A stretch of DNA of 64,000 bases from Peronospora farinosa (lineage: Eukaryota > Oomycota > Peronosporomycetes > Peronosporales > Peronosporaceae), in assembly GCA_947646735.1 (NCBI GenBank), contig CANTFK010000921.1, forward strand, positions 1-64,000, read 5' to 3'. Numbering within the stretch: position 1 is the stretch's first letter; each line of letters opens with the position of its first letter. Position numbers and translations under genes: made by a program. Below, in pieces: positions 1 to 49,302 of this stretch. Below the pieces are notes generated by a model. That model was not told the origin of the DNA and searched no databases. It saw only the letters and a list, made by a program, of their open reading frames with translations.

Positions 1-396
1 ATGCCAGTAGAAGCACTGACATCACTTCTACCGTCCTCAATCAAGTCACTATCCCTCGAATCGATTAGCGAGTCGTCTGATAAATCAGACGACCCGAAAA
101 TTTCACGGTATATTAATTGCTTAATGTACTACGTCCCCTCTTCGTAAATGGTGAAGACGAGGTATACCCAGGGGAGAGCCCGATTGTGGCGCAAGTGGCT
201 TTGAGTCGGATGCGTCATCGGACTCACCAGAGTAGTCAACGACTAACTCTGTGTCAACATCTTCACGTGTCGAAGCGCCACGTGAACCTGCAACAGGCGT
301 TGCTGGCTGAGGCTGTGAGGCCTCAGTAGCGGCTGCACACAGGCGTGCAGCCGAGTTCTTGGCTGCCTTGGGTGGGACGCGCATTGACTGGGTCAT
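1..396 (-). pseudogene. Antisense 3' gene of element A0, decayed
   Basis: An ATG at 396 on the minus strand opens a 91-codon frame running away from the 3' LTR, opposite to the element's gag-pol direction. It begins MTQSMRVPPKAAKNSAARL and includes REDVDTELVVDYSGESDD, closely matching the antisense frame of the complete A element (MTKSMRVAAKAVKNSAARL; REDVDPELVVDYSGESDH). Near 175 the frame shifts and then stops; further related sequence continues in other frames to base 1. The protein is acidic and Ser-rich, probably disordered, and of unknown function. Confidence 0.6.
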
Positions 397-497
397 AGCG
401 ATAAAAAAAGTTGGAATAAAAGCAAATCTATTAAGTGCTCCGTTTCCATAGTCACTAAATAGTCACTAATGTGACTGTTTGTTGAGGAGGGGGTTGA

Positions 498-951
498 TGT
501 AACGGGTGAGTCCGTTACATAATATTGACACTTATATGAAGTGTCAATAAAATATTATTATAACTAATAATATTTTGACAATATTACCTTTTCGTATAAT
601 ATTGTTCTTAGATCTCCTTGAAGTTGGAGATGCCCTCTCATTGGTTAATATGGGCCATCATATCAATCAACGCGCTGACCAATGGCCGATGGACGCGCGC
701 AATGAGTGGAGGGAAAGTTGTCAACATACATATTATACTTTAATATAGTTAACACAGGTTATAACAGATTAGTTAAGATAGTTAACTATATTAAATACAG
801 TTTTCTTTTCCTCTACTTCTAAGCGTTTGTTTAGAAAGTAAAGCTTCCTCTGCCTCTTGTGTAAGAAAGGTAATTGAGGCACCTGCTTTCACTGTAATCA
901 GTGAAAGTAGACTATACTGTAATCAGTATAGACGGAGGGTGCCCCATTACA
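498..951 (+). repeat. Family A LTR (3' LTR of A0)
   Basis: 454 bp, starting TGTAACGGGTGAG and ending GGGTGCCCCATTACA. It aligns along its length with the LTRs at 41161-41617 and 48850-49302. It contains successive short inverted repeats, for example GTAACGG/CCGTTAC at its start. Confidence 0.9.
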
Positions 952-1296
952 ACATATGTCCCATCAATGACCGATGCTTATCGCCACTTTGGGGTGATGG
1001 CAGTGTTGTGGTGTCATTGTAGTCTACAATGAGAGATGGATCTTCATCCACATTAAAGTGAGATGGAAGGTTCGGCTCAGTGCCTGAATCACTTTGCGAC
1101 GGCTGCGATAAATCGCGGCGCGTGCGCTTAGTGCTGGACTGCATGGGTGCCGTTTCAGGCGACCCATCAGCCTTACCACGTTTAGGTGGCATGAGTACTG
1201 AGCAGACTAAAGCGGCGCGTGTATAACGGCTCGCAAGTCTCTCTGTTTCCTAGGCGATGTTTTACAAATTAAAAATCGTTCTAAAACGGAAGATAA
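952..1296 (+). mobile_element. Family B fragment B0, 3' internal end
   Basis: Reverse complement of about 4185-4530 in the complete B element, so the B0 sense strand is plus. It carries the first ~80 codons of the family's antisense gene: ATG at 1192 on the minus strand, protein beginning MPPKRGKADGSPETAP and containing DEDPSLIVDYNDTT. The frame is cut at 952 by insertion of A0. Only a few residues differ from the intact copy at 4289. Confidence 0.85.
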
Positions 1297-3576: not shown

Positions 3577-3581
3577 TCTTG

Positions 3582-4184
3582 TGTAGACGGGCACTTCTAC
3601 GAAGTTGCCTCGTGCTACGAGCACACACCTTATGCACAAGCGAGGAAGCGTTTATACCGTCTTACCTTTGCGTGCGAGGGTGGTTAGGAGGTTGGTCGAC
3701 TACTGAAGCAGTCGTACCACCAGTTGCCTCTCGCTTAAGCGAGAGTGCAACGAACTTCTTAACACTAAAGCACCGACGTCACGCAGAAGTCTTGCAACTT
3801 CTCGTGCGTGGTGTGTATGTTTAAGTAAATTCAAGACTGAGATATATCTAATTAATTATAACTAAATATATATTTAACTACTGATTGGCATATATATATA
3901 TATATAGAGATCGGATACGCGACTCTTTAGAAGCGTATCCTGTCGCATGATCTTAAATCTAGATTTAAGATCGCAACTGACGTCCTTCTGAGACGTCTTG
4001 ATGCCTAGCTTCAACTAGCGTCATCCCTTCTCATGTGAATCCATAAATGGATATCACATTCACGAGGGTGGATCACATTTGTGTATCGCACCCAAGTGAC
4101 AGGTCAAAAGTAATCATGGATACTTTTAGACCTTACATTAAGTATATTACTTAATGTTTACGTGTAACTAGATGCCCTGTTACA
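3582..4184 (-). repeat. Family B LTR, 3' LTR of element B
   Basis: 603 bp, starting TGTAGACGGGCAC and ending GCCCTGTTACA on the plus strand. It is the 3' LTR relative to pol; the purine-rich stretch on the minus strand just before it (AAAACGGAAGATAA) is the likely polypurine tract. It contains many adjacent inverted repeats, for example the palindrome CTCTCGCTTAAGCGAGAG (3728-3745) and a 24-bp palindrome at 3949-3972, plus a (TA)n run near 3890-3905. Confidence 0.93.
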
Positions 4185-4288
4185 TTATCTTCCGTTTTAG
4201 AACGATTTTTAATTTGTAAAACATCGCCTAGGAAACAGAGAGACTTGCGAGCCGTTATACACGCGCCGCTTTAGTCTGCTCAGTACTC

Positions 4289-5734
4289 ATGCCACCTAAA
4301 CGTGGTAAGGCTGATGGGTCGCCTGAAACGGCACCCATGCAGTCCAGCACTAAGCTCACGCGCCGCGATTTATCGCAGCCGTCGCAAAGTGATTCAGGCA
4401 CTGAGCCGAACCTTCCATCTCACTTTAATGTGGATGAAGATCCATCTCTCATTGTAGACTACAATGACACCACAACACTGCCATCACCCCAAAGTGGCGA
4501 TGAGCATAGGTCATTGATGGGACATATGTCCCCATCATCTGAGGCACCCGTCCTTGAGGAAGCATCTATGCTTCCTACAAGCGAAGGTAAAGCCTCGTCG
4601 TCTGCGCCTACGAGCGTAGCGACTAAGACTGAGCACGCTACTTCGAAAGGAGTAGTCGCGACTCAGTCAGATGTTACTTCTCAGGCTGATGTCTTGACAA
4701 TCCATAATGGAGAGTCAGACTCAGGTGAGTGTGAGCTTAAAGCTCCACCAAGTACACCGTCGGCCTCACTAGCCCGCCGTCGCGAGGGCGGCTACGTGAG
4801 TGGTGGCTTGCCACCAATGCCACCTCCATCTGAGTGGATGAACTCGGATGGGTCTAGCGCAGCGCTTTTGCAGCGTGCCACTATAGACGCTCATAGATTC
4901 TATAGCGTCTTTCCTTTGTGGAAAAAGCAGGGCAAAGCACTTGGTCGTGCTTTCCCAATTCCAGTCGTGCTGCGTTCTAACGAAACAGCCGACGAATATG
5001 AAGCTGAACTTCGGCGCCGTGTTACCTTGCATGAAGATGCAACTAAACAAAGGTCGCAGCGAATCAGCTTCGACATGAAGCGTGCGCATGAAATTATGGG
5101 TGGTAAGCGACCCCCAATTAATTCTCGCCACGCTTCTTCTGCTAGTCCTTCCGGACCTAGCAGAAAGAAGACAGCTGGTGCTGCTTCACATAAGCAGCCA
5201 CCAGCCCAGGCACGTCAACGCGCAAAGCGTCCACAGGCTTCCACGAGTCAAAGCTCGTTGGGTAACCCTTCCACTGGACAAGGATTTGGAGCTTTCGCTT
5301 CACAAACCGGTGGGCCAACAGCCTTCCAACAAGGAAGCGCGTGTTCCCTTCCGTGTCCACCAACACAGGTGGCGCCCGATAGGAGTGGCGATTTCGCCCA
5401 CCTAATCGCGGCTGCCTACCCTGCTGCTGTTCAGTCGCAGGGTGAGACCGCTGCGCTGAAGAGGCAGGTGAAAGATGTCGAGAGTCAAGTCTCGCGACTG
5501 ACCTCGGATCTGCGTGATGTGAGGGCGAGGGACCGTCAGGGGTATGACCGTCTGAAGACCCGTTTGGACATCCTAGAGCGACTGGTGATGAGAGACCCGC
5601 GTCAAGCGCGGAGCCCTCCTCGATCACCGAGTCCCCTATCGCCTCGTTCATACACGGGTAGCCTCTCGGCTTCCTCGTCGCCTGATCGGTCGCGACGCTC
5701 GACTCACAGTCGACGTCACCATCGGTCTCGTTAG
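4289..5734 (+). CDS. Intact antisense gene of family B, unknown function
   Basis: A 481-codon frame opposite to gag-pol. Its ATG lies 105 nt inside the 3' LTR. The protein has an acidic Ser/Thr-rich N-terminus with DEDPSLIVDYNDTT (about residues 49-62), a middle region with AFPIP (about 218) and charged helical sequence, a Ser/Ala/Gln-rich linker, a heptad-like coiled coil (about residues 395-440, with VKDVESQVSRLTSDL) and a basic RS/SP-rich tail. I do not recognise the family. Counterparts occupy the same place in families A and C. Its last ~580 bp overlap the chromodomain ORF (5157-6119, minus). This is the only long undamaged frame in the element. Expression is inferred, perhaps from a promoter in or near the LTR. 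Confidence 0.75.
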   Translation: MPPKRGKADGSPETAPMQSSTKLTRRDLSQPSQSDSGTEPNLPSHFNVDEDPSLIVDYNDTTTLPSPQSGDEHRSLMGHMSPSSEAPVLEEASMLPTSEGKASSSAPTSVATKTEHATSKGVVATQSDVTSQADVLTIHNGESDSGECELKAPPSTPSASLARRREGGYVSGGLPPMPPPSEWMNSDGSSAALLQRATIDAHRFYSVFPLWKKQGKALGRAFPIPVVLRSNETADEYEAELRRRVTLHEDATKQRSQRISFDMKRAHEIMGGKRPPINSRHASSASPSGPSRKKTAGAASHKQPPAQARQRAKRPQASTSQSSLGNPSTGQGFGAFASQTGGPTAFQQGSACSLPCPPTQVAPDRSGDFAHLIAAAYPAAVQSQGETAALKRQVKDVESQVSRLTSDLRDVRARDRQGYDRLKTRLDILERLVMRDPRQARSPPRSPSPLSPRSYTGSLSASSSPDRSRRSTHSRRHHRSR

Positions 5735-6119
5735 ACCGATGTGAATATGTGATCTCTTCTGGATCAACATACCGCTTCAGACGACCCACGTAAAATACGG
5801 GGTGCGTCTTCATATACGGTGGGAGAGTGAGCCTATAATTTAGGTCTCCAGCTTCTTCAACCACTGTAAAGGGCTCAATGAATCGGGGCAATAGCTTAGT
5901 AGTACCATCAGGTAGTACAGAAATTGCATGTTTAGGTAGGGTAGCAGTACTTAATAGCACTTTGCACCCAACACTAAAGTGTTCATTGTTTTTGCGACCA
6001 TGCTGGTCTGCATATTGTTTTTGCTTGTCCTGTGCGCTTGCCATCGCGTCACGGACTTTACGTGTGATGGCTAATCGCTCATCCACAAAGCGCTGAGCTT
6101 TGCTCACGCTTATCAGCAT
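5157..6119 (-). CDS. GPY/F module and chromodomain, end of pol (family B)
   Basis: 320 codons on the minus strand. The N-terminal part holds the integrase C-terminal GPY/F-type segment (LLPRFIEPFTVV ... HPVFYVGRLKRY, residues about 75-115). A low-complexity spacer follows, then a chromodomain (RFLVGRLLAHRF, LVQWKGYPTSFDSW, residues about 260-310) near the C-terminus. Chromodomains of this type direct integration to modified chromatin in other Gypsy elements. The frame overlaps the integrase ORF by 40 nt in another frame, a frameshift relative to the presumed single pol protein. The opposite strand of its C-terminal half codes for the antisense gene. Confidence 0.88.
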   Translation of the reverse strand: MLISVSKAQRFVDERLAITRKVRDAMASAQDKQKQYADQHGRKNNEHFSVGCKVLLSTATLPKHAISVLPDGTTKLLPRFIEPFTVVEEAGDLNYRLTLPPYMKTHPVFYVGRLKRYVDPEEITYSHRSNETDGDVDCESSVATDQATRKPRGYPCMNEAIGDSVIEEGSALDAGLSSPVALGCPNGSSDGHTPDGPSPSHHADPRSVARLDSRHLSPASSAQRSHPATEQQQGRQPRLGGRNRHSYRAPPVLVDTEGNTRFLVGRLLAHRFVKRKLQILVQWKGYPTSFDSWKPVDALRVDVPGLVAAYVKQHQLSSFC

Positions 6120-7581
6120 CCAGCTCGCCTATGACGCCTCCAAGAGGTCGTTCATGGGTCGACGCTGTTAATAACATTATAGGGCCATCGGCAAAGAGCA
6201 CAGGCATTTCTTGCCGTGCCTCCTCTGTCACACCTATAGGTGTCGTGACCACTGCTAAACTAGCAGTGTCACTAGGGCAACCTTGGCCCTTTTTGGTATT
6301 CGCACCGAGCGAAGTGAGGGGCCCTCCCCCACTAAGACTCGGGCTGCGTACAAACGAGACTGGCGTTCGAGGATGACGCAGTCCGTTAATGTAAAACGGT
6401 GTTTCACCCGTACTGGCGTGAACACTGTTATTAATAGCGAACTCCACGAATGGCAATGGCTTGCTCCATTCTTTAGGAGTCGCTATTGTACGCAACACAT
6501 CCGCCACGACTCGATTGGCCCGTTCTGTTTGGCCATCGGTCTGGGGATGATCAGCGGTTGACATGTGGAGCTTGCTACCCAGCAGCTCGAACACATGTCT
6601 CCAAAAATCCGACGTAAAACGCGGATCCCGGTCCGATACTATGGACTCGGGCATCCCGTGTAGTCGATACACGTGATCCAGGAACAAGAGGGCAGCCTCT
6701 TTTCCTGAGATCTTGGTGCTACATGGTGCCAAATGCACCATCGTGCTTAATCTGTCTACAAAGACGACGAGCCCCGTCCTGCCTTTATGGTCAGGCGGTA
6801 AGCCAAATTTGAAGTCCAAACTGACCGACTTCCAGCATTCAGTAGGAATCGGCAGTGGCTTCAGTGGCGCACTGTTTGAAGGTGCAGGCTTTATGCGCTG
6901 ACACTCTTCACAAGAGCGAATATAGTTGGCCACCCACCGATATAGGTGGGGCCACCAAAATTCCTCTGACACTCGTAATAATGTCTTTTCACGGCCCAGA
7001 TGCCCACTAGATGGCGCATCATGGCACTCGTGAAGTATCATCAGCTTGAGATCTGTGTCATGAGGGACATAGATTCTCAAGGGTCCACAGGGTGACAGTT
7101 GATGCCATAACAGGCCATCACTGTAACTAAAGTGATTTAACTTCGCTTTGAGGTGCGACGGAAGGGTAACCTTTCGTCCACCAAAATGATCCAACAGCAG
7201 GTGACAATGTTCGTCCTGACTGTAACACTCCTTGATATCGGAGGCCATTGAGCTCGTCACATGGTAGGCCTTCATGGCTGCCAATGTTGACGACTCAACT
7301 TGTGCTTTCGCACGAGACACACTATCCTGGTGTCTTGCCTCGAAGTCTGGTCTGCGCGATAACGCGTCAGCCAGGACATTCGACTTACCCGGCTTATATT
7401 CAACTTTAGAATTAAATTCAGAGAAGAATGTTAGCCATCTCGCCATTCTCGGCGAAAGGTGCGGTGAATTTATAGCGGTCCGCAGTGATGCGTGATCCGT
7501 ATAAACCACAAAAGGTTCGGTGCCCAAGAGGTGCACCTTCACAAGGGCATACTTAATTGAAAGTAGCTCCTTGTCATGCAC
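6079..7581 (-). CDS. RNase H end plus integrase (family B pol)
   Basis: 500 codons. Begins inside RNase H (VYTDHASLRTAI, ADALSRRPD) and continues into integrase. The HHCC zinc finger is visible (HECHDAPSSGHLGREKT, then CEECQRIK). The catalytic triad is present: Asp in SVSLDFKFGLP, Asp in IVSDRDPRFTSDFW and Glu in HPQTDGQTERANR. After RHPRTP there is a Gly-rich LSGGGP segment, then a tail that runs out of frame before the chromodomain. It is separated from the upstream RT frame by frameshift damage near 7580-7710. Confidence 0.9.
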   Translation of the reverse strand: MHDKELLSIKYALVKVHLLGTEPFVVYTDHASLRTAINSPHLSPRMARWLTFFSEFNSKVEYKPGKSNVLADALSRRPDFEARHQDSVSRAKAQVESSTLAAMKAYHVTSSMASDIKECYSQDEHCHLLLDHFGGRKVTLPSHLKAKLNHFSYSDGLLWHQLSPCGPLRIYVPHDTDLKLMILHECHDAPSSGHLGREKTLLRVSEEFWWPHLYRWVANYIRSCEECQRIKPAPSNSAPLKPLPIPTECWKSVSLDFKFGLPPDHKGRTGLVVFVDRLSTMVHLAPCSTKISGKEAALLFLDHVYRLHGMPESIVSDRDPRFTSDFWRHVFELLGSKLHMSTADHPQTDGQTERANRVVADVLRTIATPKEWSKPLPFVEFAINNSVHASTGETPFYINGLRHPRTPVSFVRSPSLSGGGPLTSLGANTKKGQGCPSDTASLAVVTTPIGVTEEARQEMPVLFADGPIMLLTASTHERPLGGVIGELDADKREQSSALCG

Positions 7582-8821
7582 AGGGTAATTCAGCTCGGCA
7601 GCTTTTAAAGCCGAGACTTATACGAAATGACACGGTCAAAGCCGTTGCCATCCTTCTGCATAAGCGCGCTGCCGATTGCAAAATTGCTTGCATCGCAGAC
7701 GACGCTAAAGGCTTATCCGCGTCTGGCAATGCCAAGACCAGTGCCTCTACAAGAGATTGCTTCACTGAATTGAACGCATCTTCTTGTTCCTATGACCAAG
7801 TCCATTCTGTATCCTTTTTCAAAAGGTCAGACAACGGCTTAGTCTGATCCGCATAATTCTTGCTGTACTTATGCAAGTAATTAGCGAGCCCAAGGAATTG
7901 GCGCAGATCCTTCACATGTCGTGGGACTGGCCATTCCTTTACAGCCTTTACCTTTTCTGGGTCTGCTCGTACACCATGTGCACCTACGATGCAGCCCAGT
8001 ACAGGGATCTCGGGGACCCCTATTACGCACTTTTGCAAGTTCACGTATAATTGCGCGTCACCCAGAGTCTGCAACACAGCGTCTAAATGACGCTTGTGCG
8101 ACTCTATCGTGCTCAGACCGTCCTCCGCCCTACTATGCACGAATACATCGTCAAAGTAATGGGGCGCGTAGGCACGGTGCTGACGCATCACGTGAGCCAC
8201 TACTCGGTTGAATGTTGCCGGAGCATTTTTCAACCCTTGTGGCATCACAAGCCACTCCCACAGCATACCGCTTGGGGTGCTTACTGCCGTTTTGGCTACA
8301 TCGGTATCTCTCATGAGAACCTGATAGTAGCCATCCTTCAGATCCAACGCGGAAAAGATAGTTGACTTTCCCATGGAATTTATCAAGACATCTTTCCGCG
8401 GGATCGGCGTTTGAGCTGGAATGGTGGCCGTGTTCAGCTTATTATAAGCGTGAGCCACGCGCCATCCACCCGTTGCTTTACGCACACAGAAGGTCGGGCT
8501 GCATTGAGGCGACTTGCTCTCACGTACATGTCCCGCCTTAGCTCGCTTGTCGAAGAACTCATCGATGTAATCGACTTGTTCCTTCGGCAACGGCCATTGC
8601 CTGGTCACACAATACTTGGTGCCAGGTTCCAGGTCAATTTCGTGCCTGATGCCCCTATCGGCCGGTAGGCGGCTCGGCACTTCTGCTGGAAACACATCGC
8701 GGTGTTTCCACAGAACATCATAGAACGGGCTGTCCTTCAAGGCATCCCAGCCTTGAGCAGTGAACCGTTTCTTTTTGTCCGTCTCCAAGACGCTCTCCCA
8801 TACATTGTGGATGAAGAGCAA
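7574..8821 (-). pseudogene. Reverse transcriptase and RNase H start (family B), one stop and a frameshift
   Basis: The RT palm is well preserved: HEIDLEPGTKYCVTRQWPLP, FSALDLKDGYYQVLMR, MPQGLKNAPATFNR and the catalytic box YFDDVFVHS. A thumb/connection region follows (LGCIVGAHGVRADPEKV, FLGLANYLHKYSKNYA). An in-frame TAG at 7790-7792 (after TEWTWS) interrupts the frame, which continues for 72 codons to 7574. Near 7710 the RNase H sequence slips out of frame, so the enzyme as encoded is truncated. Confidence 0.88.
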
Positions 8822-9606
8822 CAGTCCACCACGTTCTCTCCTGAAACTGGTGCGACTATCTCGTGGATCTTTCTTTCCTTAAGTTCGGACAGAAACAGAT
8901 TCCACGTCATCTCCGAGAGATTTACTATCTCCTCGGCAGATGCCAAGACAAGTTGGAGCACCTCAACTGAGAATGCCTCCGGCATTTTGTCTTCGACGGC
9001 CTCGAACAACTCGTTCGTAGGTCCGTCCTCTTGGACCGAGACTGATCCAAGGGTCACTCGTTTCGACGTGCCCTTGATCGTCTTAATACGTCTGGTGCTC
9101 GTTCTTCGAGTCACCACGACCTTTGACCTGGAAGAAGGTGTCGTTGCTATCTCAGCTAACGCACCCCTTCCAACCGCACCAGGCTCTTGGCACTGTGCCG
9201 GTTCTTGTGGCGCTTGACTTGCTGTCAGCCCACCGTCAACTGCCACAGGCTCTCGGCTCTGTGCAGGACCATTGTACGCATGACTACCTGTCATCGCCCC
9301 ATTCACTACACCAGTCTCTTCGACCTGGGTAGGAATATGTGTCACCTGGCTTTCCGCCAGTGCACTTCCAACTACACCACTCCTTTCGAGCTGGGTAGTT
9401 CCTGGTGTCGATTGACATACCGTCATCGCACCCTCGACCGTGTTGGACACAGCACCATCCACATAAGCCTCTCGCAAGAGCACATCCTTTCCGGTGTCTT
9501 GCGTAGAGCTAGCGACTGTGCGTGTACGCCAGTCTATCCATGGTTGGTGTTTAGCCAACCAAGGCATGCCTAGGATGAGGTCATACGGACTCTCCATACC
9601 TAGCAC
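8737..9606 (-). pseudogene. Protease C-terminal part and PR-RT linker (family B)
   Basis: 289 codons. Starts with the conserved end of the retropepsin fold (YDLILGMPWLAKHQPWIDW, residues 6-24), which in a healthy copy would be fused to the protease ORF 9600-9914. A long variable linker follows, with imperfect repeats built on PAQSREPVAVDGG / PAQCQEPGAVGRG. It overlaps the RT frame out of phase, so at least one frameshift lies near 8740-8820. Confidence 0.75.
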
Positions 9607-9988
9607 TGTGAACTTCTTCTTACAAGAGAACTGAAACTGAAGGCGAGTCCAACTTGAAGTCTTTCCAATTTAACGAGCGCGCCATTCGCTAAACGAACGA
9701 TCGCCTCTTCTCGCTTGCCATCCTGGCAAAGCGACTCATAACTCGCCGGCCTCTTTTTCAGAGCCGCGAGTTTCACAAAGTTTTGTGATGCACCCGAATC
9801 CACGAGAAGGGTCATCACTTGGTCATCGCCTCGTACTCGAACGCTATAGACCAAAAGGGTTGAGGTCCGACCTTTCGGAACCTCAGGGACTATGCTACCC
9901 ATTTGTTCTATCACTCTGAACTTAGGGGTAGCTTCAGAGTCCGCGACAGTAGGGCATCCAGCCCCTACTGCGTTACCGCATTTCCCGA
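9600..9988 (-). CDS. Aspartic protease (family B), in -1 frame of gag
   Basis: Retropepsin domain with active-site motif LLVDSGASQNF and flap/body residues downstream. The frame is open upstream through the gag stop codon to the slippery site at 9980-9986, so it is entered most simply by -1 frameshifting rather than by its own start. The C-terminus slips out of frame near 9620-9640 relative to the continuation in 8737-9606. Confidence 0.8.
9947..9986 (-). promoter_or_regulatory. Putative -1 frameshift signal at gag/pro (family B)
   Basis: Read on the minus strand: slippery heptamer G GGA AAT in the gag frame (9986-9980), 9-nt spacer GCGGTAACG (9979-9971), then a 24-nt hairpin (9970-9947) with arms CAGTAGGG and CCCTACTG. 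The gag stop TAG lies in the 5' arm. The protease is in the -1 frame and is open throughout. Families A and C have the same heptamer class, the same spacer length and the same arms. Confidence 0.8.
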
Positions 9989-11063
9989 CCCATCTTGGGC
10001 AGGTGCTGAACCCGTGCGTCGTGCACGCTGGTTTTTCGCACCTCCCTTCGGGTTGGGAATAGACCTTTTGCTGGCTGCCTTAGCACCAGCAGATACCTTG
10101 GCATAGCAGCGAGCCATCATATGGCCTCGCTTGCCGCACTTGTAGCAGATCACATCTGCATTACCTAACTCCATAGGAGTGGCATTAGACTTCTCGGACG
10201 ACGGCCTGTAATAGGCTGTCGCCGAGGCGCTGTTGTAGGATTGCTCCTCAACTAAGGCAATGTCAATTGCCTCTTCCATCGTCGCTGGCACCTTTCTGAA
10301 AAGGGCCTGACGCGATGGCCATGCCTAAGTCCATTCATGAACGTGGCCACCTTGATACGCTCTGGTATCGGTTCCCCATTGATGGACGCCGACAGCGAAC
10401 GCATCTCCTGCACAAACTCTTGCAGAGAGCGGTTCGCCTGTCGTGCTCTAAAGAAGCGCGCCATAAGCAACACTTCGTTGTTAGGCGGCTGATACATGGC
10501 ACGAATCTTTGCCTTAAAGATCGCCCATGATGGAAATGCATCAGCATTAGCCATCAGCGCAGAGTATGACCATTCTGACGCTTTGCCACGCAAGTTGGAC
10601 ATGGCATACGATACCATTCTGGTGTCGTCTTAGATGAGCTGCGCCACTCCACATTGCTCCACTGCTAATAGCCAGTGAACAATCGTGTGAGGGCTAGTTC
10701 CATCGAACTTCGGAGAGTCCATCCGAATGGGCCTTGGTTGAGCAGGCCGGGCAGAGAGCGTCTCAACAGTTCTGTTGAGCGCCCCATTACGTGCCTGCTC
10801 AAGCCTAAGCTCATCCTGAGTCTTAGTGATGGACTCAGCGGTGGCTTGGCTGTTTACCTCGGACGCGTTTCTACGCTGTCCGAGCACAAACGCCTCAAAT
10901 TGCTCCAACTGAGCAACATGTTGCTCAGGAGGACAATGCAAAAGATTGACCAGGGCTTGTTCACCAGGTCCTGCGCCATATGCTCTGCCAACTCCCTATG
11001 ATGTTGGGAGAGGTAAGGGAAGTCACTCCAGTCCATATTAAGGACCATGTCAACCACACGCAC
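9965..11063 (-). pseudogene. gag of family B (capsid and zinc knuckle), damaged
   Basis: Three overlapping frames together make a gag. The N-terminus is helical (WSDFPYLSQHHRELAEHM). The capsid-like part contains DSPKFDGTSPHTIVHWLLAVE and NLRGKASEWSYSALM, with the retrotransposon-gag signature FRARQANRSLQEFVQEMR. A CCHC knuckle near the end reads CYKCGKRGHMMARC. Damage: a frameshift near 10950, an in-frame TAA at 10630-10632 and a frameshift near 10300. The frame ends at the TAG inside the frameshift hairpin. Confidence 0.85.
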
Positions 11064-11087
11064 GCTCAGAGAGACGGGACGTGGGAA

Positions 11088-11105
11088 GGACTACTAGTGC
11101 TACCA
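11088..11105 (-). promoter_or_regulatory. Primer-binding site, family B
   Basis: On the minus strand, TGGTAGCACTAGTAGTCC starts 2 nt inside the LTR at 11108. Its complement ends GCTACCA, as a charged tRNA 3' end would. It nearly matches the sites of families A and C, supporting both the LTR boundary and the minus-strand orientation. Confidence 0.75.
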
Positions 11106-11107
11106 AG

Positions 11108-11718
11108 TGTAGACGGGCACTTCTACGAAGTTGCCTCGTACTACGAGCACACACCTTATGCACAAGCGAGGAAGCGGTTATACCGTCTTACCTTCGCGTG
11201 CGAGGGTGGTTGGGAGGTTGGTCGACTGCTTACGCAGTCGTATCACCAGTTGCCTCTCGCTTAAGCGAGAGTGCAACGAACTTCTTAACACTAAAGCACC
11301 GACGTCACGCAGAAGTCTTGCAACTTCTCGTGCGTGGTGCGTATGTTTAAGTAAATTCAAGACTGAGATATATCTAATTAATTATAACTAAATATATATT
11401 TAACTACTGATTGGCTATATATATATATATATATAGTATAGATCGGATACGCGACTCTTTAGAAGCGTATCCTGTCGCATGATCTTAAATCTAGATTGAA
11501 GCTCGCTAACTGACGTCCTTCTGAGACGTCTTGATGCCTAGCTTCAACTAGCGTCATCCCTTCTCATGTGAATCCATAAATGGATATCACATTCACGAGG
11601 GTGGACCACATTTGTGTATCGCACCCGAAGTGACAGGTCAAAAGTAATCATGGATACTTTTAGACCAAACATTAAGTATATTACTTAATGTTTACGTGTA
11701 ATTAGATGTCCTGTCACA
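11108..11718 (-). repeat. Family B LTR, 5' LTR of element B
   Basis: 611 bp, TGTAGACGGGCAC to GATGTCCTGTCACA. It aligns along its full length with 3582-4184, with scattered differences, including loss of the 24-bp palindrome (AGATTGAAGCTC replaces AGATTTAAGATC). Confidence 0.92.
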
Positions 11719-11723
11719 TCTTG

Positions 11724-12226: not shown

Positions 12227-14077
12227 ATGATGTTTTCGTCAGCGAAGTATATTCTGTTGTTGCTGCTCTCGTGTTGTTCGATTCGGATGGTAAGAAGTTG
12301 TATTCATGATTTACTTGACCACAAGTGCGTCACCGGACATCAAAATTACGACGACAATCACCCGTTCATAGCAGACAATCGAAAACGCAAACAACGCAAA
12401 TTACAAGACGCATCACCAACGTTCCAGTCTATTCGAATGACACCATACTATGACGATTTAAGTCTCAACAAGCTCCCAACCGCTACCCGGGCCGAAGTAT
12501 TCAAATTTGTAGGAGAAGCGATTCAACGTATCAGCACGAGACTTCAGGTCGTACCTGTTAGTGGAAACCTTTTTGCAGAGCGGTTTTGCACCCGCGATTT
12601 TGCCACCACACCACCGGTGTGCCATTCAATTGCAACGAACGAGACGTGCTTGGAAATGCCAATGCCAGATGACCATTTCGCTTCATTGGAGTACTGCGAC
12701 AAGTGCTCTTCCAATGGCTGCACGAATTGCAAAGTATCGCCGGCTGGAGCTGGTATATCAAACACGGACTTCCTCATATACGTGCGAGCTGAAGACACCG
12801 ACCGTTGCAAGAGTGGTAGAACGTTAGCCTACGCATCAACCTGCCAGCAAGATCAGTACGATCGTCCTACTTTTGGAATGGTCAATTTCTGCCCAAACCA
12901 GCTCAGCACTGCAACGTCAGCTTTCGAATCCCAGGTGACCACAGCACTTCATGAATTTACTCATGCGCTTGGGTTTTCATCTCGCTTCTTTGCTCTGATG
13001 CGAGACGAAGATGGTACACCGAGAACTCCACGAGATGGCAAAGGAAGTCCGCCTACGCGCTCATCAGGAACGTGTCCAAACGGCAAAAATATCACTTACT
13101 ACGTGGAACCTTCGAGCACAACGATTACATATTCGACTGAACGGAACCATATCGTTGCAAAAATGGTTACTCCTCGTGTTCGCAGTTTTGTACGAGATCA
13201 CTTCAATTGTTCCACGCTTGAAGGTGCTGAGATCGAGTCTCAAGACGGTGAATGTCTCGGTTCGCACTGGGAAGAACGACTGTTTGAACCCGAATACATG
13301 ACACCCGTCACGAGCTATCGCAACGTTTTTAGTGCTCTCACGTTGGCTTTCTTTGCAGATTCAGGTTGGTATCGCGTTGATTCGTCGATCTCTGAGGTTA
13401 TGCATTACGGACGGAACAAGGGCTGCACGTTTGTGACTGAGAAGTGCCTCGGTCCTGCGATGTTTCCTGTAGCTTCGGATCACTTCTGTGCGACACCCGC
13501 AAACGAGTTCCAGGGATGCTCGATTGATGCCACATCGCGCGCGGTATGTTCCCTAAGCACGAACAACCTAATGATTCCAACGGAGTATCAATATTTTCCA
13601 GAAAATCCGACAAAGGGTGGATCAAACAACTACGCAGACTTCTGTCCGCTCGTTGTGGGCTATACAGGTGGTGACTGTTCCATTTCAACGAACCTTTCAA
13701 AACTCGGCACGACCACCATTAACGCTTTTGGTGAGACGTATTGTCCTGCATGCAAGTGCACAGCGACTTCTCTGCGCAGTGCTGATTCTTTGCAATGGTC
13801 GATAGGTACACCGAGACAGAGCGGTTGCTACGCCATGCGGTGTTTTATCGATAATAATTCAAGCACCCTTAGTGCTATTGTTGAGCTCACTATTCCACGT
13901 AGTCAAACACTGGAAGATGTGCGGCTTAAGTGCATCGAAAAGGGACAAAAGTTATCTGTACCAGGCTTTACCGGTGACATCACATGTCCAGACCCGTTTG
14001 TCGTGTGTGCAACCAAAGAAACGAACAGAATTTTACTTTCCGATACTGAAAGCGACAGCAACGTTTTATTCAAATGA
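12227..14077 (+). CDS. GP63/leishmanolysin-like secreted zinc metalloprotease
   Basis: 616 codons from the ATG pair at 12227/12230; an upstream in-frame ATG at 12140 is less likely, because the chosen start puts a hydrophobic signal peptide (KYILLLLLSCC) at the N-terminus. M8-family features: HEFTH zinc-binding helix (His242, Glu243, His246), a distant third zinc ligand in GSHWEERLFEP (His347) and a Met-turn EYMTP (Met358). Many paired Cys follow in the C-terminal domain. The spacing between HEXXH and the third His is about 100 residues, filled by a Cys-flanked insert. Family members are secreted or surface proteases; in oomycetes a role in the host interface is plausible but not shown here. 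No intron, no frameshift. It is convergent with the glycosyltransferase gene downstream. Confidence 0.92.
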   Translation: MMFSSAKYILLLLLSCCSIRMVRSCIHDLLDHKCVTGHQNYDDNHPFIADNRKRKQRKLQDASPTFQSIRMTPYYDDLSLNKLPTATRAEVFKFVGEAIQRISTRLQVVPVSGNLFAERFCTRDFATTPPVCHSIATNETCLEMPMPDDHFASLEYCDKCSSNGCTNCKVSPAGAGISNTDFLIYVRAEDTDRCKSGRTLAYASTCQQDQYDRPTFGMVNFCPNQLSTATSAFESQVTTALHEFTHALGFSSRFFALMRDEDGTPRTPRDGKGSPPTRSSGTCPNGKNITYYVEPSSTTITYSTERNHIVAKMVTPRVRSFVRDHFNCSTLEGAEIESQDGECLGSHWEERLFEPEYMTPVTSYRNVFSALTLAFFADSGWYRVDSSISEVMHYGRNKGCTFVTEKCLGPAMFPVASDHFCATPANEFQGCSIDATSRAVCSLSTNNLMIPTEYQYFPENPTKGGSNNYADFCPLVVGYTGGDCSISTNLSKLGTTTINAFGETYCPACKCTATSLRSADSLQWSIGTPRQSGCYAMRCFIDNNSSTLSAIVELTIPRSQTLEDVRLKCIEKGQKLSVPGFTGDITCPDPFVVCATKETNRILLSDTESDSNVLFK

Positions 14078-14094
14078 CAATGGATCTCTCAACA

Positions 14095-14285
14095 TGTCCA
14101 AACGGCAAAAATATCACTTACTACGTGGAACCTTCGAGCACAACGATTACATATTCGACTGAACGGAACCATATCGTTGCAAAAATGGTTACTCCTCGTG
14201 TTCGCAATTTTGTACGAGATCACTTCAATTGTTCCACGCTTGAAGGTGCTGAGATCGAGTCTCAAGACGGTGAATGTCTTGGATC
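14095..14285 (+). repeat. Duplicated internal piece of the GP63 gene
   Basis: 191 bp nearly identical to 13073-13263 inside the protease gene (offset 1022 bp), lying 18 bp after the stop codon. It codes for the segment CPNGKNITYYVEPSS through DGECLGS. The copy ends just before the codon for the third zinc-binding His. An in-frame ATG at 14074 gives a 71-codon ORF through it, but no catalytic residue is included. Confidence 0.95.
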
Positions 14286-14480
14286 GTGATAGCTCGGTGC
14301 GAGGTATTAACAACTATGAAATTGTCACCGACTGAAAAATGCCCGACCATATTTCATTCGCTATCTATTTGTGTGTTTCTCGAACGAAGCCACAAGTATT
14401 CAACATTTTTACTTAACAGATATCCTACTTGACAATCATTCGTGTAAGCCGCACGCGTCGCAAAATCTCAGTCACTGCTG

Positions 14481-19007: not shown

Positions 19008-19328
19008 TGTAATGGGGCAACCTATTACATGAGTAGTTATAGGAATAATGCATAATTACATAAGTAGGCATAGGGCAGTATCCCATTAGCGGATACTGCG
19101 CGTCATTTTATTATTGGTTTATTATTGGGGTGCCAGACCCAATAATTAACCAATAATAATTTGACTTCCATGTTGAGTGGTTCCCATGCGCTAGGGAACA
19201 AATTCGCACTTACTGCGAGGCAAAACTAAAACAAAAATAAAACAGAGTTATATTTACGAGTTAAAATTGAGAGCGCTTCCTCAACGCCCTTTTAGTGTAA
19301 GATGGTAACGGGTCCTTAGCCCGGTACA
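19008..19328 (+). repeat. Family C 5' LTR
   Basis: 321 bp, TGTAATGGGGCAACC to TTAGCCCGGTACA. It contains a 22-bp inverted repeat with one mismatch (19108-19129 and 19138-19159), then GTTCCC/GGGAAC and TCGCA/TGCGA hairpins. Confidence 0.93.
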
Positions 19329-24815: not shown

Positions 24816-25845
24816 GTGACAAATTTGGGCGCTAATAAGTTAGTACCAAGATATATTGGCCCATTTCGGGTTGTTAAGGTGCATGGTGACGATTACACGG
24901 TCGACATACCCACATCTATGCGTTTGCACCCGACGTTCTACGTCGGGCGCCTCAAGGCTTACCTGCCGGCGGATCTCCCTTCGAATCTTCCCCGCTCTTC
25001 TGTACCGGCTCAAAATCCGACATCCCTTGATGACGACGTTGACGACGACTGGGACCAAGTCCTGCCCGAACGCGTGCAGACTCGATCTGCTGGGGTCCTC
25101 CGAACGCAGTCGTCTCAAGTTGACGTAGGCGCTCAACCAGTACCAGCTGCTCACGTCGAGTCCGCTCAGCATCCTCAGTCGCAGCATCCGCACGATCTTA
25201 AAGCTCTCTCATTCATCTCGCGAGCATCAAGTAGGGCATTCTTCGATTCCTCGACTTCAGCGTGAAGTAGACGCAGCTCATCATTCAACTGTGCAGGCGC
25301 CCGATTACGAAAATCGGCTCTAATCGCCAGAGGTCTTCCGTCGTGATGCTCCTCCTCCCTTCAAAGAAGCATCGGGTGTGCGACGTTGGATTGTCGACCG
25401 AATTGTCGATCACGAGAATCATAAGTTTTATGCGCCGAGTAATAACTCGGCGCCTACGAAGAACTACGTCGAGAAACATTACATGGTGCGCTGCTTGGTA
25501 TATTCGCCGGCGGACGATACATGGGAGCCATCGAGTACGCTGTTCCAAGATGAACCAGACGTGGTCGAGGATTATGAGTCGCGTAGGAAGACGGCTATTG
25601 CGAGTAATGCTGCCTATTCCATCCCCAATCTCGCGAGCAGTGATGCTCGCGAGCAGCAGAACTTTGACGACGAGTTCCCGAGCGATTCCGAGATTTATTA
25701 TGAGGCTCGAGAAAACTTGGATGTCATTTGCGACTATGTGGGATGCCAAGCGAATCGAATTTGGCGCACGTGGGGATCGAACCAGCGACATCACGATCAA
25801 GAACTCTGTGGTACACCACTGCAACAACGGAATGATAGCGAATAA
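24816..25845 (+). pseudogene. GPY/F module and chromodomain (family C)
   Basis: Two frames. The first has LVPRYIGPFRVVKVHGDDY and HPTFYVGRLKAYLP (GPY/F). The second starts near 25343 and has RRWIVDRIVDHENHKFYAPS and VRCLVYSPADDTWEPSSTLF, a chromodomain-like fold with an insertion. An out-of-frame stop region separates them near 25265-25340. Confidence 0.8.
25762..25835 (-). other. tRNA-like remnant inside element C
   Basis: On the minus strand there is a T-arm-like GGTTCGATCC, with an anticodon-arm-like and a D-arm-like segment upstream (TTGCAGTGG), resembling a full tRNA layout. But the acceptor ends do not pair and the T-stem has mismatches, so it is at best a decayed tRNA-derived piece. 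It sits exactly where similarity to the antisense gene stops. Confidence 0.35.
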
Positions 25846-26127: not shown

Positions 26128-26446
26128 TGTAATGGGTCTACCTATTACATAAGTAGTTATAGGAATTTATACATAATTACATAAGTAGGCATAGGGCAGT
26201 ATCCGATTAGCGGATATTGCGCGTCATTTTATTATTGGTTAATAATTCGGGTGCCAGACCCAATAATTAACCAATAATAAATTGACTTCCATGTTGAGTG
26301 GTTCCCATGAGCTAGGGAACATATTCGCACTTATTGCGAATCAAAACTAAAACAAAATAAAACAGAGTTATATTTACGAGTTAATTAAGGGCGCTTCCTC
26401 AACGCCATTTTAGTGTAAGACGGTAACGGGTCCTTAGCCCGTTACA
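26128..26446 (+). repeat. Family C 3' LTR
   Basis: 319 bp, TGTAATGGGTCTACC to TTAGCCCGTTACA; aligns fully with 19008-19328. It is preceded by the polypurine tract AAAG followed by a poly-G run and TGA. Confidence 0.93.
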
Positions 26447-35694: not shown

Positions 35695-36975
35695 ATGGAC
35701 GACTTGGTACTTGACGAATTGGTCGACTTCTTTCAGACATCCGATGAATTTGCTCTCTCAACTGCAGTAACATGTGATGATTTGCATCAAGATGATTTCT
35801 ATCCGGACGTGGAATCTCTTCTAGATCCGTTCATGCCAACTTTGCTTCCCCTCGAACCAATTCCAGTCGACAATGCTGTGACCCCAGTTATGCCAGCCTC
35901 TGCTAACTCGGAACGCTTAACCGTTCAACAACAACAACGTCGATCCAAGGATGCTGCTCGACGTAGTGAATATCGCAAGCGACAAAAGGAGGAAAAGGAT
36001 TCTTTACGTAAAGAGATTGACGAGTTATCCGCTAAACTTGACAAGTTACAGGATTCAACAGACGCTGGTCGGACATCCCCATCCACTGACGGTGCACTTT
36101 TGAACTATTTATGGAAATCCATTGCGTCTCGACAAAAGAATCATCTTGAAAATGCTGAGAAGGAACAGCAGCAGCTACGAGCTGCCATCAGTTCACGAAC
36201 CACATTGATTGAGAACATGTGTGGACTTTTGAAGAAGCGACTTCACGATGGATCGGTTGCAAACGATGAATTTGGAGACACGCCGCGACTTAAAAAGCGA
36301 ATGCTTCTTACACCGACCGATTCGGCGCTATTTCACACGTTTATTCGAGAACTTCATACTGTCTACTTGCAAACTGATGAAGTTATCACTGCCTGCAATT
36401 CGTCCATGACGAAAAAGTTTCCGGCAATTACCAGATTCAAGGATAAAGAAACGGAATACTATCAGGAAGCTGACCGACAAACACTGCCATTCAAATACAA
36501 GCAGATCTGTCAGTCATTATGGCATTGGGCTCAGCTAAAGCACCGACAAGAGGACCGAGAAATTTATGAAACGATGGAAGACCCGGGCAATATAATAGCG
36601 ATGAAGTTTCGAATCACAAGCCGTCGAATGGGCGAAACTGTGTCGTTGCTGCAGCGAACTGCTGCTCGTCGGTTTCAAGAGGTCAATCGCGTTGTCGTCG
36701 TGTGGAAGGTGTTTTCTGAAGGTGAAGGACTGTTTCAAGGGATGCATTCCGACGAGACTGGATGGTGTGTTGTTCGACCATCCACAGATAGTTCCATGGG
36801 CGGGACAATCCTGGAGACATGCATACGGCGCGTACCGATGCACTTCACCAGTTTGATGACTTATACACCCGTCATCAACGAATTTACGGATCTGGTCTTT
36901 GCTACGGGAGACGAAGAGAACAAAAGTGTTTTAAAAGCTCTAGAGACGATGTCACTTGACGCTGAGGGTTGTTAG
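35695..36975 (+). CDS. bZIP-like transcription regulator with atypical basic region
   Basis: 426 codons from the ATG at 35695; the in-frame GTG just before it is not a start. The N-terminus is acidic (residues 1-60). A basic region near residues 80-97 reads RRSKDAARRSEYRKRQKEE and is followed by a leucine-type heptad stretch (RKEIDELSAKLDKLQ). Another coiled-coil segment (ENAEKEQQQLRAAIS) precedes a ~230-residue C-terminal domain with LWHWAQLKHRQEDREIYETM and VWKVFSEGEGLFQGMHSDET. The layout resembles the large oomycete bZIP/M96 mating-specific-like family; this assignment is from memory of the family and not certain. The invariant Asn of the bZIP contact helix is Ser, and the following invariant Arg is Glu, so DNA binding may be altered or lost. 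The frame is intact. Confidence 0.75.
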   Translation: MDDLVLDELVDFFQTSDEFALSTAVTCDDLHQDDFYPDVESLLDPFMPTLLPLEPIPVDNAVTPVMPASANSERLTVQQQQRRSKDAARRSEYRKRQKEEKDSLRKEIDELSAKLDKLQDSTDAGRTSPSTDGALLNYLWKSIASRQKNHLENAEKEQQQLRAAISSRTTLIENMCGLLKKRLHDGSVANDEFGDTPRLKKRMLLTPTDSALFHTFIRELHTVYLQTDEVITACNSSMTKKFPAITRFKDKETEYYQEADRQTLPFKYKQICQSLWHWAQLKHRQEDREIYETMEDPGNIIAMKFRITSRRMGETVSLLQRTAARRFQEVNRVVVVWKVFSEGEGLFQGMHSDETGWCVVRPSTDSSMGGTILETCIRRVPMHFTSLMTYTPVINEFTDLVFATGDEENKSVLKALETMSLDAEGC

Positions 36976-41160: not shown

Positions 41161-41617
41161 TAACGGGGTGAGCCCGTTACATAATATTGACACTTATATG
41201 AAGTGTCATTAAAAATATTATTATAACTAATGATATTTGACAATATTATCTTTTATTATAATATTGTCCCTAGATCTCCTTGAAGTTGGAGATGCCTCTT
41301 TAATTGGTTAATATGGGCCATCATATCAACCAACGCGCTGACCAATGACCGATGGACGCGCGCAATGAGTGAAGGGCAAGTTGTCAACATACATAGTTGT
41401 AGTTTAATATAGTTAACATAGGTTATAACAGATTAGTTTTATTAGATAGTTAACTATATTAAATACAGTTTCCTTTTCCTTCTCAACTAAGCGTGTATTT
41501 AGTTGATTGACTTCCTCTGCTCACGTGTACGTGAGGTAATTGAGGCACCTGCTTTCAATGTCATCAGTGAAGGTAGACTATACTGTTATCAGTATAGTCG
41601 GTGGGTGCCCCATTACA
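41161..41617 (+). repeat. Family A 5' LTR
   Basis: 457 bp, starting TAACGGGGTGAGCCCGTTAC and ending GGGTGCCCCATTACA. The first ~310 bp are almost identical to the 3' LTR; the last ~140 bp differ strongly. Contains TTTAATATAGTTAAC/GTTAACTATATTAAA (41403-41417, 41449-41463). Confidence 0.9.
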
Positions 41618-41619
41618 CC

Positions 41620-41637
41620 TGGTAGCACTTCGTGGTC
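41620..41637 (+). promoter_or_regulatory. Primer-binding site, family A
   Basis: TGGTAGCACTTCGTGGTC, 2 nt after the LTR. The first 10 bases equal the family B site. Confidence 0.7.
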
Positions 41638-42824
41638 CGTTCAGCGACCACCGCATTATCCGCTATGGACTCAGCGGGTGATGATTTCCGCCATTTGAGT
41701 GACCTCGAATGGAATGCGGTTCAGCTTATGGCTGAAATCATCGACAACCCTGCCGTTGGTGCCATGTTGCTCTCTCTTAGCGGAGACGGCCAACATGCAA
41801 CCATCGCCAAGTTCATTCAACATGAACTTGACGAAGTTGTAAAGAAACTCATCTTGCTAGAGGAGCAAGGTTCTCAATAGGGTGACCTGTTGAGAGAACA
41901 AGGCGCTCAACAAGCTGAATTGTTGATGCAGAAGGGTGCCCAACAGTCAGAACTGTTAAGACAACAGCAGGATAGTGCTGTTGCTGCCGGGTCGACGTGT
42001 ATACTTCGACCCGAGTCCTTGAAGATTGATATCTCCAAGTACAAGGCAGTCGAAAGCGACTCCTTGTTAAGATGGTTTGTCGAAATCGACGATGCCATTG
42101 AGGCTCGTCGCATCGATGACGATGCGATGAAGGTCAAGTTCGCCATGTCGAATTGGCAGGACGTGCCAAAGCGAGGGCCTTAGGGCTCAAACTGCACGAC
42201 CCATACGTTTTGCCAACGTATGATGTCTTCAAGGCGCGGCTCAAACACACGTTTGAACCGCCTCGCGACGAATCTAGGGCTCGTGCTGATCTCCTGGATT
42301 TGAAACAGGGTAAGAGTGATATACACGCTTACGCCCAACACGTACGATACCTCGTTAGTTGTATCGTGCTGAACCCAATCGATGAAAACACGCAATTTAC
42401 TGTGTTCATCAAGGTTCTGACAGATGGTCCTTTCAAGACCCACCTGTTCCGCTTGGAACTAGAATCGCTGGATCAAGCGATCTCTGCAGTGAAACAGGAG
42501 GACTTTAGCCTACAACAGGCTCACGTCCACTCGGGGTCCTATCGTCCACTGAGATGACAGGAGGGAGGAGGTCCAGAACCAATGGACCTCTCCTATGTAG
42601 AGAGCGAGCGACCTCGCTCTCCAGGGTACAAGCGATTGCAAAAGTGCAATCGCTGTCAGAAGTTGGGCCACTACGCTTATGAGTGTAGTGCCCCACGCCC
42701 AGTATCTCGTAACACTGGGAGTGACGATCGTCCGTCTGCCAAGAAGGGCCAGAGACGTGGGTCCCACGCTGCTGCGAAATCGCAACAACGTGGTGGACCA
42801 TCAAAAAACGGTCGGGGTCAGTAG
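41632..42824 (+). pseudogene. gag of family A, damaged
   Basis: Capsid-like gag with Gln-rich repeats (REQGAQQAELLMQKGAQQSE), SLLRWFVEIDDAIEARR, and the signature DLLDLKQGKSDIHAYAQHVR. The CCHC knuckle reads CNRCQKLGHYAYEC. Damage: TAG at 41878-41880, frameshift near 42160, TGA at 42555-42557. It ends at TAG 42822-42824 inside the frameshift hairpin. Confidence 0.85.
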
Positions 42825-42842
42825 GGGCGGAGCGCCCTACTG
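42803..42842 (+). promoter_or_regulatory. Putative -1 frameshift signal at gag/pro (family A)
   Basis: Heptamer A AAA AAC (42803-42809) in the gag frame, 9-nt spacer GGTCGGGGT (42810-42818), 24-nt hairpin (42819-42842) with arms CAGTAGGG and CCCTACTG. The protease frame is exactly -1; one TAG (42899-42901) now interrupts it. Confidence 0.8.
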
Positions 42843-42901
42843 ATCCAGCAAAGTCAAGAGAGTTCGCGGGACTCTTGACGAGGGTTGCTCCCAACACATA
42901 G

Positions 42902-46560: not shown

Positions 46561-46915
46561 CCGAAGTCGTACCATTCGACTTCGGTGAAGAGGAAGAGAG
46601 TAAGAGCGATGACGCTCTTGCTGATAACGATGCTGAAGATATCAGCATCGTTAGAGGTATCACAAGTGAGAACAGTAATGTTCTCACTGAATTAGTAACC
46701 GATGTCTCTGCAGTGCACTTACAATGCCAAAAGCAACGAGTCAGCTGAGGATTTCCTGCTGACTCGTGAAGCGTTAGTCCGTTTCGTGCAAGACTCCTCG
46801 CAGAAGTGGTGGATAAGCAAACGCGAAACGCAGACAATAATGGAAGGGCAAATGCTCAGACATTTATTGTAGGTGATTTAGTTTTACTGTCAACAGTAAC
46901 CTACCTAAACATGTA

Positions 46916-48753: not shown

Positions 48754-48849
48754 AGCGTGAAAATTGTTGGAATAAAAGAAACCCAACAAGTGCTCCTTTC
48801 ACATAGTCACTAAACAGTCACTAATGTGACTGTTGGTTGGGGGGGGTGA

Positions 48850-49302
48850 TGTAACGGGGTGAGCCCGTTACATAATATTGTCACTTATATGAAGTGTCAC
48901 TAAAAATATTATTATACTAATGATATTTGACAATATTATCTTTTATTATAATATTGTCCCTAGATCTCCTTGAAGTTGGAGATGCCTCTTTAATTGGTTA
49001 ATATGGGCCATCATATCAACCAACGCGCTGACCAATGACCGATGGACGCGCGCAATGAGTGAAGGGCAAGTTGTCAACATACATAGTTGTAGTTTAATAT
49101 AGTTAACATAGGTTATAACAGATTAGTTTTATTAGATAGTTAACTATATTAAATACAGTTCTCTTTTCCTCTACTTCTAAGCTGTCGTTTTGAAGCTTCC
49201 TCTGCCTCTTGTGTAAGAGAGGTTTTGTGGCACCTGATTTTACTGCCATCAGGGAAGGTAAACTATACTATTATCAGTATAGTCGTAGGGTGCCCCATTA
49301 CA
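48850..49302 (+). repeat. Family A 3' LTR
   Basis: 453 bp, TGTAACGGGGTGAGC to GGGTGCCCCATTACA, preceded by a G-run polypurine tract. Its last third resembles the A0 LTR more than its own 5' LTR. Confidence 0.92.

Follow-up and report, generated by a model that had tools for sequence, protein, structure and literature searches.

Organization of element B and its antisense gene

The window analysed here is a stretch of 64,000 nucleotides from Peronospora farinosa (contig CANTFK010000921.1), to which all coordinates refer. Its minus strand carries a complete Ty3/Gypsy insertion with a chromodomain, named element B, at 3582-11718 (8137 bp). The insertion is bounded by a 5' LTR (11107-11718) and a 3' LTR (3582-4184, TG...CA), with 95.9% identity between the two and edges read by eye from the sequence, and is flanked by the target-site duplication CAAGA (3577-3581 and 11719-11723, read off the sequence). 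On the sense strand, Pfam recognized gag, a zinc-knuckle, reverse transcriptase, one RNase H, integrase and the chromodomain, whereas matches to a protease were weak. The end of RNase H, the H2C2 region and the integrase core were located at 6079-7446 (minus strand, Pfam). The 3' end of pol, at 5157-6119 (minus strand), comprised the SH3-like part of the integrase, a spacer and the chromodomain (Pfam SH3_Tf2-1 and Chromo). A first-pass annotation of this DNA had described every pol frame of the element as damaged and, indeed, the sense frame was found to be split into short, broken ORFs.

The same annotation had reported an intact ORF of 481 codons antisense to gag-pol, and this ORF was confirmed at 4289-5734 on the plus strand, from ATG to TAG, by the ORF list, the genome copies and the selection analysis. 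It starts just inside the element, 104 bp from the edge of the 3' LTR, and shares 578 bp with the chromodomain ORF, close to the 580 bp estimated earlier. About 40% of the gene is therefore the reverse strand of pol, with the first 289 codons lying outside it. In 400 sequences simulated for the 8137-bp element with an order-1 Markov model, no ATG ORF of 481 codons was obtained on either strand (mean of the longest ORF, 128 codons; maximum, 295 codons), which excludes a chance origin.

The ordered layout proposed for the product (acidic motif, helical middle, coiled coil and RS-rich tail) was right in outline. From the N- to the C-terminus, with all parts on the plus strand, we distinguished an S/T/P-rich region (codons 1-150; 4289-4738), which holds the acidic motif DPSLIVDY (codons 51-58; 4439-4462); a middle domain outside pol (codons 151-289; 4739-5155); a linker opposite the chromodomain (codons 290-365; 5156-5383); a coiled coil (codons 366-440; 5384-5608); and an RS-rich basic tail (codons 441-481; 5609-5731). 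In an alignment of six B-type proteins, the pattern D-P-x-L-x-V-D-Y was invariant (6/6), and a similar motif was present in several proteins of the C-type described below. The best coiled-coil window (residues 380-414) reached 8.9 on a home-made score, versus a maximum of 8.2 in 60 shuffles. Searches of Pfam and the PDB with the antisense proteins gave only scattered, weak coiled-coil matches. In the PDB sequence search, nothing was retrieved for the B-type and the C-type gave weak coiled-coil-like matches, with a best E-value of 0.058. YCAYTYY is an initiator motif of oomycetes; it was absent from the 708 bp upstream of the antisense gene in all nine copies looked at.

That the antisense ORF is unbroken beside a broken pol, as had been pointed out, stands as a fact. 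Within a single copy, however, it is only weakly informative, since gag-pol, with about four times the length, will collect more lesions; the case for the antisense gene comes from comparing copies.

Two further observations were made at the borders of the element. The LTR part at 3989-4185 differed by about 30% or more in 9 of 24 B-type pairs, while the antisense ORF differed by less than 10%; the LTR variants look as if they had been exchanged between copies, misalignment being the alternative. Moreover, an ORF for a Leishmanolysin-like peptidase (12227-14077; Pfam Peptidase_M8) adjoins the element, and 196 bp of this ORF (13069-13264) recur, 98% identical, at 14091-14286.

Copies and relatives of the B-type gene

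To place the gene among its copies, we searched the 46.9-Mb, 274-contig assembly that contains the window. At least 89 places matched the B-type protein, of which 22, including the window copy, spanned the full 481 residues with no internal stop; intact copies, whose absence would have spoken against a gene, thus exist elsewhere. One of these 22, L032, has no ATG. A second copy in the window, described in the first-pass annotation as sharing the first 80 codons or so, is present at 952-1192 (minus strand), with its LTR following at about 1297-1898. It belongs to an inverted repeat of 639 nt, formed by 952-1590 and 3891-4529 (99% identity). Its homology breaks off at codon 80, cut short by the adjoining tail of another Gypsy element (window positions 1-951). 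This tail is a C-type 3' end on the plus strand, with an 83% match to 48321-49302; its LTR begins at about 489, and in translation the minus strand shows the beginning of an antisense frame belonging to this element. From the sequence, the junction may be read as a nested insertion.

A single-sequence search and an alignment-based search with the B-type protein retrieved the same 13 related proteins, down to 44% identity; the best matches came from Peronospora effusa and P. farinosa. Compared with four distant relatives, codons 151-289 showed 55-73% identity versus 30-56% for codons 1-150. These relatives also bear on the proposal that the element carries a captured host gene. Such captures are known in plants, according to the part of the literature covered (PMC7264820), but none of the 13 relatives had a named domain or a host-gene name. 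Furthermore, the neighbouring pol could be aligned at less than 10% difference in 24/24 copy pairs, so that those copies sit in the element. Finally, about two fifths of the gene being the reverse strand of pol fits overprinting better. Capture from the host thus appears extremely unlikely.

Five pairs of B-type matches were inverted, each on one contig and about 3-25 kb apart (G000 C57:114828-120637, C266:368254-381210, C267:630568-641674, C42:401624-412882 and C216:101296-129419). The two pairs compared differed by at most 0.3% in codons 1-289. These pairs could be large inverted duplications or an assembly effect.

Selection on the gene outside the overlap with pol

Selection was assessed by dN/dS (w), using an alignment of 49 of the 89 matches and 24 disjoint pairs drawn from the tree. 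Neutral w values were simulated, taking the transition/transversion ratio and the CpG rate from the leader and LTR part, which could be aligned in 15 of the 24 pairs; counts such as 1/200 give the simulated runs with a w at least as low as that observed.

Outside the overlap, dN/dS in the antisense frame was below neutral, as expected of a gene kept in use: w was 0.62 for codons 1-289, versus a neutral value of 0.78 (1/200). This constraint was located in the middle domain, where w was 0.52 (bootstrap 0.43-0.64) versus 0.83 (0/200). It did not extend to codons 1-150 (0.73 versus 0.74; 88/200), for which, outside the short acidic motif, no constraint was detectable among recent copies. In the same copies, after leaving out pairs with less than 80% coverage or more than 15% difference, pol had a w of 0.43 in the chromodomain ORF outside the overlap (23/24 pairs) and of 0.49 in the integrase (21/24 pairs). 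The middle domain was thus conserved about as well as other proteins of the element, whereas codons 1-150 were not.

The low w was a property of the antisense frame. In pairs differing by at least 4%, w over codons 1-289 was 0.51 in the antisense frame versus 0.83-1.26 in four of the five other frames; with the disjoint pairs, one minus-strand frame of this part had a w of 1.13. In codons 151-289, the antisense frame was open in 38 of 49 copies, and each of the five other frames in none. Counted per copy, the antisense frame was open in 22 of 49 and pol, over a longer stretch, in 4 of 49; these counts carry no weight, since antisense similarity had been the basis for choosing the copies. The earlier reading as a gene is supported.

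The fifth other frame, also on the minus strand, had a w of 0.59 in pairs differing by at least 4%, an effect of sharing its third positions with the antisense frame. It was rejected as a gene, since each of the 49 copies had at least six stops in it, whereas the antisense frame was stop-free in 33 of 49.

Divided constraint in the overlap

Over the whole overlap, the antisense frame was weakly below neutral (w of 0.72 versus 0.80; 24/200) and the pol frame had a w of 1.03. When the overlap was split by layout into three parts, the two frames behaved in opposite ways. In codons 290-365, which face the chromodomain, the antisense frame was unconstrained (w of 1.33) and pol was held (0.61; 6/200). 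In the coiled coil (codons 366-440), w was 0.51 in the antisense frame (0/200) and 1.63 in pol, and the RS-rich tail (codons 441-480) was similar, with 0.58 (1/200) and 1.18, respectively. The constraint is therefore divided, with pol held at the chromodomain and the antisense frame held at the coiled coil, a pattern that a by-product of pol would not give. Taken with the result for codons 151-289, both the middle domain and the coiled coil of the B-type protein are under purifying selection in the antisense frame.

Antisense genes in elements C and D

A second Gypsy element with a chromodomain, element C, lies on the plus strand at 41161-49302 (LTRs at 41161-41617 and 48850-49302, 92.1% identity), and its integrase is 54% identical to that of element B. 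Its antisense gene (47557-48753, minus strand) has a stop and a frameshift in the window copy, but is open for 588 codons in other copies, including L052 and L054, and starts 96 bp from the LTR edge. The search of the same genome with the C-type protein gave 119 match rows. Relatives were found in P. effusa and in many proteins of Peronospora matthiolae (120 of the 189 matches listed); among the matches listed, those of P. matthiolae included clusters of 1335 and 524 member sequences. With the C-type alignment as query, no related locus was confirmed in the viral_contigs and genome_contigs collections.

Selection on the C-type gene was estimated from 20 copies (the 8 best-scoring and 12 picked among stop-free matches), giving 10 disjoint pairs. 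The middle domain (residues 222-362), which lies outside pol, had a w of 0.40 versus a neutral 0.79 (0/300), and only the antisense frame was open there, in 20/20 copies. Residues 17-221 were not constrained among recent copies (0.97 versus 0.80). The overlap of the C-type showed no preference for the antisense frame, with a w of 0.72 for antisense and 0.76 for pol in disjoint pairs, and of 0.80 and 0.64, respectively, in all pairs. The same was true of its coiled coil (0.61 and 0.58; four pairs).

Among 17 C-type proteins, H312, C322 and C329 were invariant and C332 nearly so (L052 residues 312-332, in the middle domain). Judging from this conservation, these four residues could form a metal site.

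The LTRs of element D are at 19008-19328 and 26128-26446, and about 300 bp separate pol from the 3' LTR. Its antisense coiled-coil ORF is broken in the window copy (24952-25530, minus strand, placed by locus arithmetic). We fetched 8 of the 41 match rows, including the window copy, and in 7/7 of the others an antisense ORF of 192-209 codons was found inside pol. Over the whole ORF, w was 0.51 in the antisense frame versus a neutral 0.80 (0/100) and 0.98 in pol (four disjoint pairs), and 0.66 and 0.80, respectively, in all pairs. In the coiled coil, the antisense frame had a w of 0.24 versus 0.92 (0/200) and pol 1.83, in only four pairs. The parts before and after the coiled coil showed no antisense constraint (0.82 and 0.85).

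These data bear on two explanations that give the protein no role or a secondary one. According to the first, the ORF would be a shadow, i.e., an untranslated open frame that reflects nothing but the codon pattern of pol. The 578 bp shared with pol in element B, the D-type ORF lying wholly inside pol and the lack of antisense preference in the C overlap would all fit a shadow. On the other hand, the first 289 B-type codons are outside pol and codons 151-289 are constrained, the same holds for the C-type middle domain, and constraint of the B coiled coil in the antisense frame and not in pol is opposite to the pattern expected of a shadow. We consequently give this explanation almost no credence. 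According to the second, the useful product would be the antisense RNA, which would pair with genomic RNA and tune the element via small RNAs, the protein being secondary. Regulation by antisense RNA has been proposed for other elements (PMC7264820), and Gypsy elements of Phytophthora infestans are reported to give rise to small RNAs of both sense and antisense orientation (PMC3522703), in the parts of these sources covered here. However, selection follows the antisense codon positions and varies by protein region, neither of which is expected from an RNA, and such a role therefore seems very improbable.

Relationships between the antisense genes of elements B, C and D

By coordinate arithmetic, position 1 of the antisense codons faces position 1 of the pol codons in B, C and D, and integrase alignments with offset arithmetic indicated that all three coiled coils lie opposite roughly the same part of pol. 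The B and C genes, in addition, share place, orientation, phase and layout, plus a motif, compared here as EDVDPSLVVDYNES in the B-type protein P0006 and EDVDPELVVDYSGE in the C-type. Comparison of whole-protein profiles gave one match between B and C (probability 58%, E-value 1e-4), mostly opposite pol. When the profiles were limited to the parts outside pol, the comparison reached only P = 0.011, carried by the motif E-D-V-D-P-x-L-V-V-D-Y. The middle domains of B and C showed no significant similarity and could not be aligned by profile. Pairwise B/C scores were above the best of 200 shuffles in three of the five pairs tried, and not in the other two. On this sequence evidence, B and C may descend from one ancestral gene whose middle domain was replaced or evolves very fast, or they may be partly independent genes.

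Comparison with known antisense genes of LTR elements

Among plant Gypsy elements, antisense genes of the class aORF-3R are described as gene23 of maize Grande, in rice RIRE2, in Silene and other Retand elements (TRP28), and as ORF2 of bean PvRetro13. In the portions of these accounts available, they are antisense, placed between pol and the 3' LTR, present in most copies and of unknown function; the Grande product is nuclear and that of PvRetro13 has an SMC domain (PMC7264820, PMC11963269). The B-type gene is likewise antisense and next to the 3' LTR. Unlike aORF-3R as described there, it has about 40% of its length cut from pol, with constraint divided by segment. The host also differs, B being an oomycete chromodomain element and Retand a plant lineage of non-chromoviruses. 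Moreover, the Pfam family of TRP28, Transposase_28 (PF04195), was matched by none of the 6 B-type and 17 C-type proteins at an E-value of 0.1. By analogy, we read the B-type gene as akin to these plant genes, now found in a new host group, and with an overlap whose constraint is divided.

Outside plants, brtn is an antisense gene of Boty-like Gypsy elements in Botrytis, as far as the consulted portions of the reports go (PMC8365987, PMC7264820). Like the B-type gene, it is an antisense extra gene in a non-plant Gypsy element; it is fungal, and the likeness is one of description alone. In HTLV-1, HBZ and the APH proteins are antisense products with a promoter in the 3' LTR; HBZ is nuclear, with an activation domain at the N-terminus and bZIP at the C-terminus (PMC10186651, consulted in part). 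The resemblance of the B-type protein, known from sequence, is to this layout only, and bZIP was not matched in B-type and C-type proteins at an E-value of 0.1 (Pfam), unlike HBZ.

In oomycetes, according to the portion covered, Chronos is a Gypsy element with a chromodomain after the integrase and an archaeal-type RNase H, and the word "antisense" is absent from the main text describing it (PMC5348765). Elements B and C also have the chromodomain after the integrase (Pfam Chromo). However, the pieces of them scanned contained only RT_RNaseH and, unlike Chronos, no second, archaeal-type RNase H (RVT_3); their integrases are 28-29% identical to that of a Chronos-like element in the window. Chromodomain Gypsy elements of Ectocarpus are described without such an antisense gene in the available part of the report (PMC12477816). 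Among the records listed from the open-licence literature, titles and the starts of abstracts yielded no oomycete case, and hence nothing in them contradicted the first-pass statement that no description in oomycetes was known.

Proposed role of the antisense protein

Overall, the ORF is probably a genuine accessory protein gene of a group of chromodomain Ty3/Gypsy elements in a downy-mildew-like oomycete, antisense to gag-pol, with a product that would act in trans on the element. Antisense transcription would start in or beside the 3' LTR, and the product would form a coiled-coil dimer. Its N- and C-termini are basic in composition, and these ends may allow entry into the nucleus; together with the coiled coil and the constrained middle domain, they point to a nuclear dimer. 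There, the protein would act on the element cycle, most likely on LTR transcription or on the integrase-chromodomain complex at chromatin. Being encoded antisense, it can be made only from integrated DNA and not from genomic RNA; its dose should therefore follow the number of integrated copies, including those with a dead pol. Constraint close to that of the integrase in the same copies implies that the protein is of importance as long as elements are active.

Two other roles for a protein were considered. It might suppress host silencing, by small RNAs or chromatin, and so allow expression of the element. The strong divergence between families, with middle domains of B and C beyond profile alignment, would fit an arms race, as would the loose N-terminal part, but no Pfam match to known suppressors was found, and we consider this role unlikely. 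Alternatively, it might be a nucleoprotein or integration cofactor working with the integrase and chromodomain, in nuclear import or target choice. Its basic termini, coiled coil and near-integrase constraint would fit a need in each round; on the other side, the antisense product is not made from packaged RNA, and no domain in common with any such cofactor was found in Pfam, so that we judge this role to be no more probable than silencing suppression. By analogy with HBZ, a trans-acting regulator of the element is tentatively favoured over both.

A bolder reading of the trans-acting regulator, which we hold only tentatively and think is more probably wrong than right, is that the antisense gene is ancestral, and that what preserves pol between integrase and chromodomain is chiefly the coiled coil encoded on the opposite strand. 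The protein would then be a sensor of copy number, with fast-evolving middle domains fitted to each family. If so, a single DNA segment would have two uses, for pol at the chromodomain and, next to it, for the antisense protein.

Antisense genes of LTR elements have been noted before in plants and a fungus, with function unknown in the parts of those sources covered (PMC7264820, PMC11963269). The present case adds selection at the protein level, another group of eukaryotes, occurrence in at least two element families and a constraint divided between sense and antisense within the overlap. Whether antisense regulators like that of HTLV-1 are common among LTR elements can thus be put to the test. 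The annotations of downy mildews may also hold many "uncharacterized proteins" that belong to this antisense-gene family.

Other features of the window

Near the 3' end of the Chronos-like element of the window, no antisense ORF reached 170 codons. Among the pieces of the window scanned, RVT_3, the second RNase H, was found only in this element, within 57351-59060. Its terminal repeats (51815-54130 and 60883-63203) are 2.3 kb long and 89% identical, and the left one runs into the gag ORF starting at 53783. Elsewhere, an ORF of 426 codons (35695-36975) looked, by eye, like a host basic-leucine-zipper protein.
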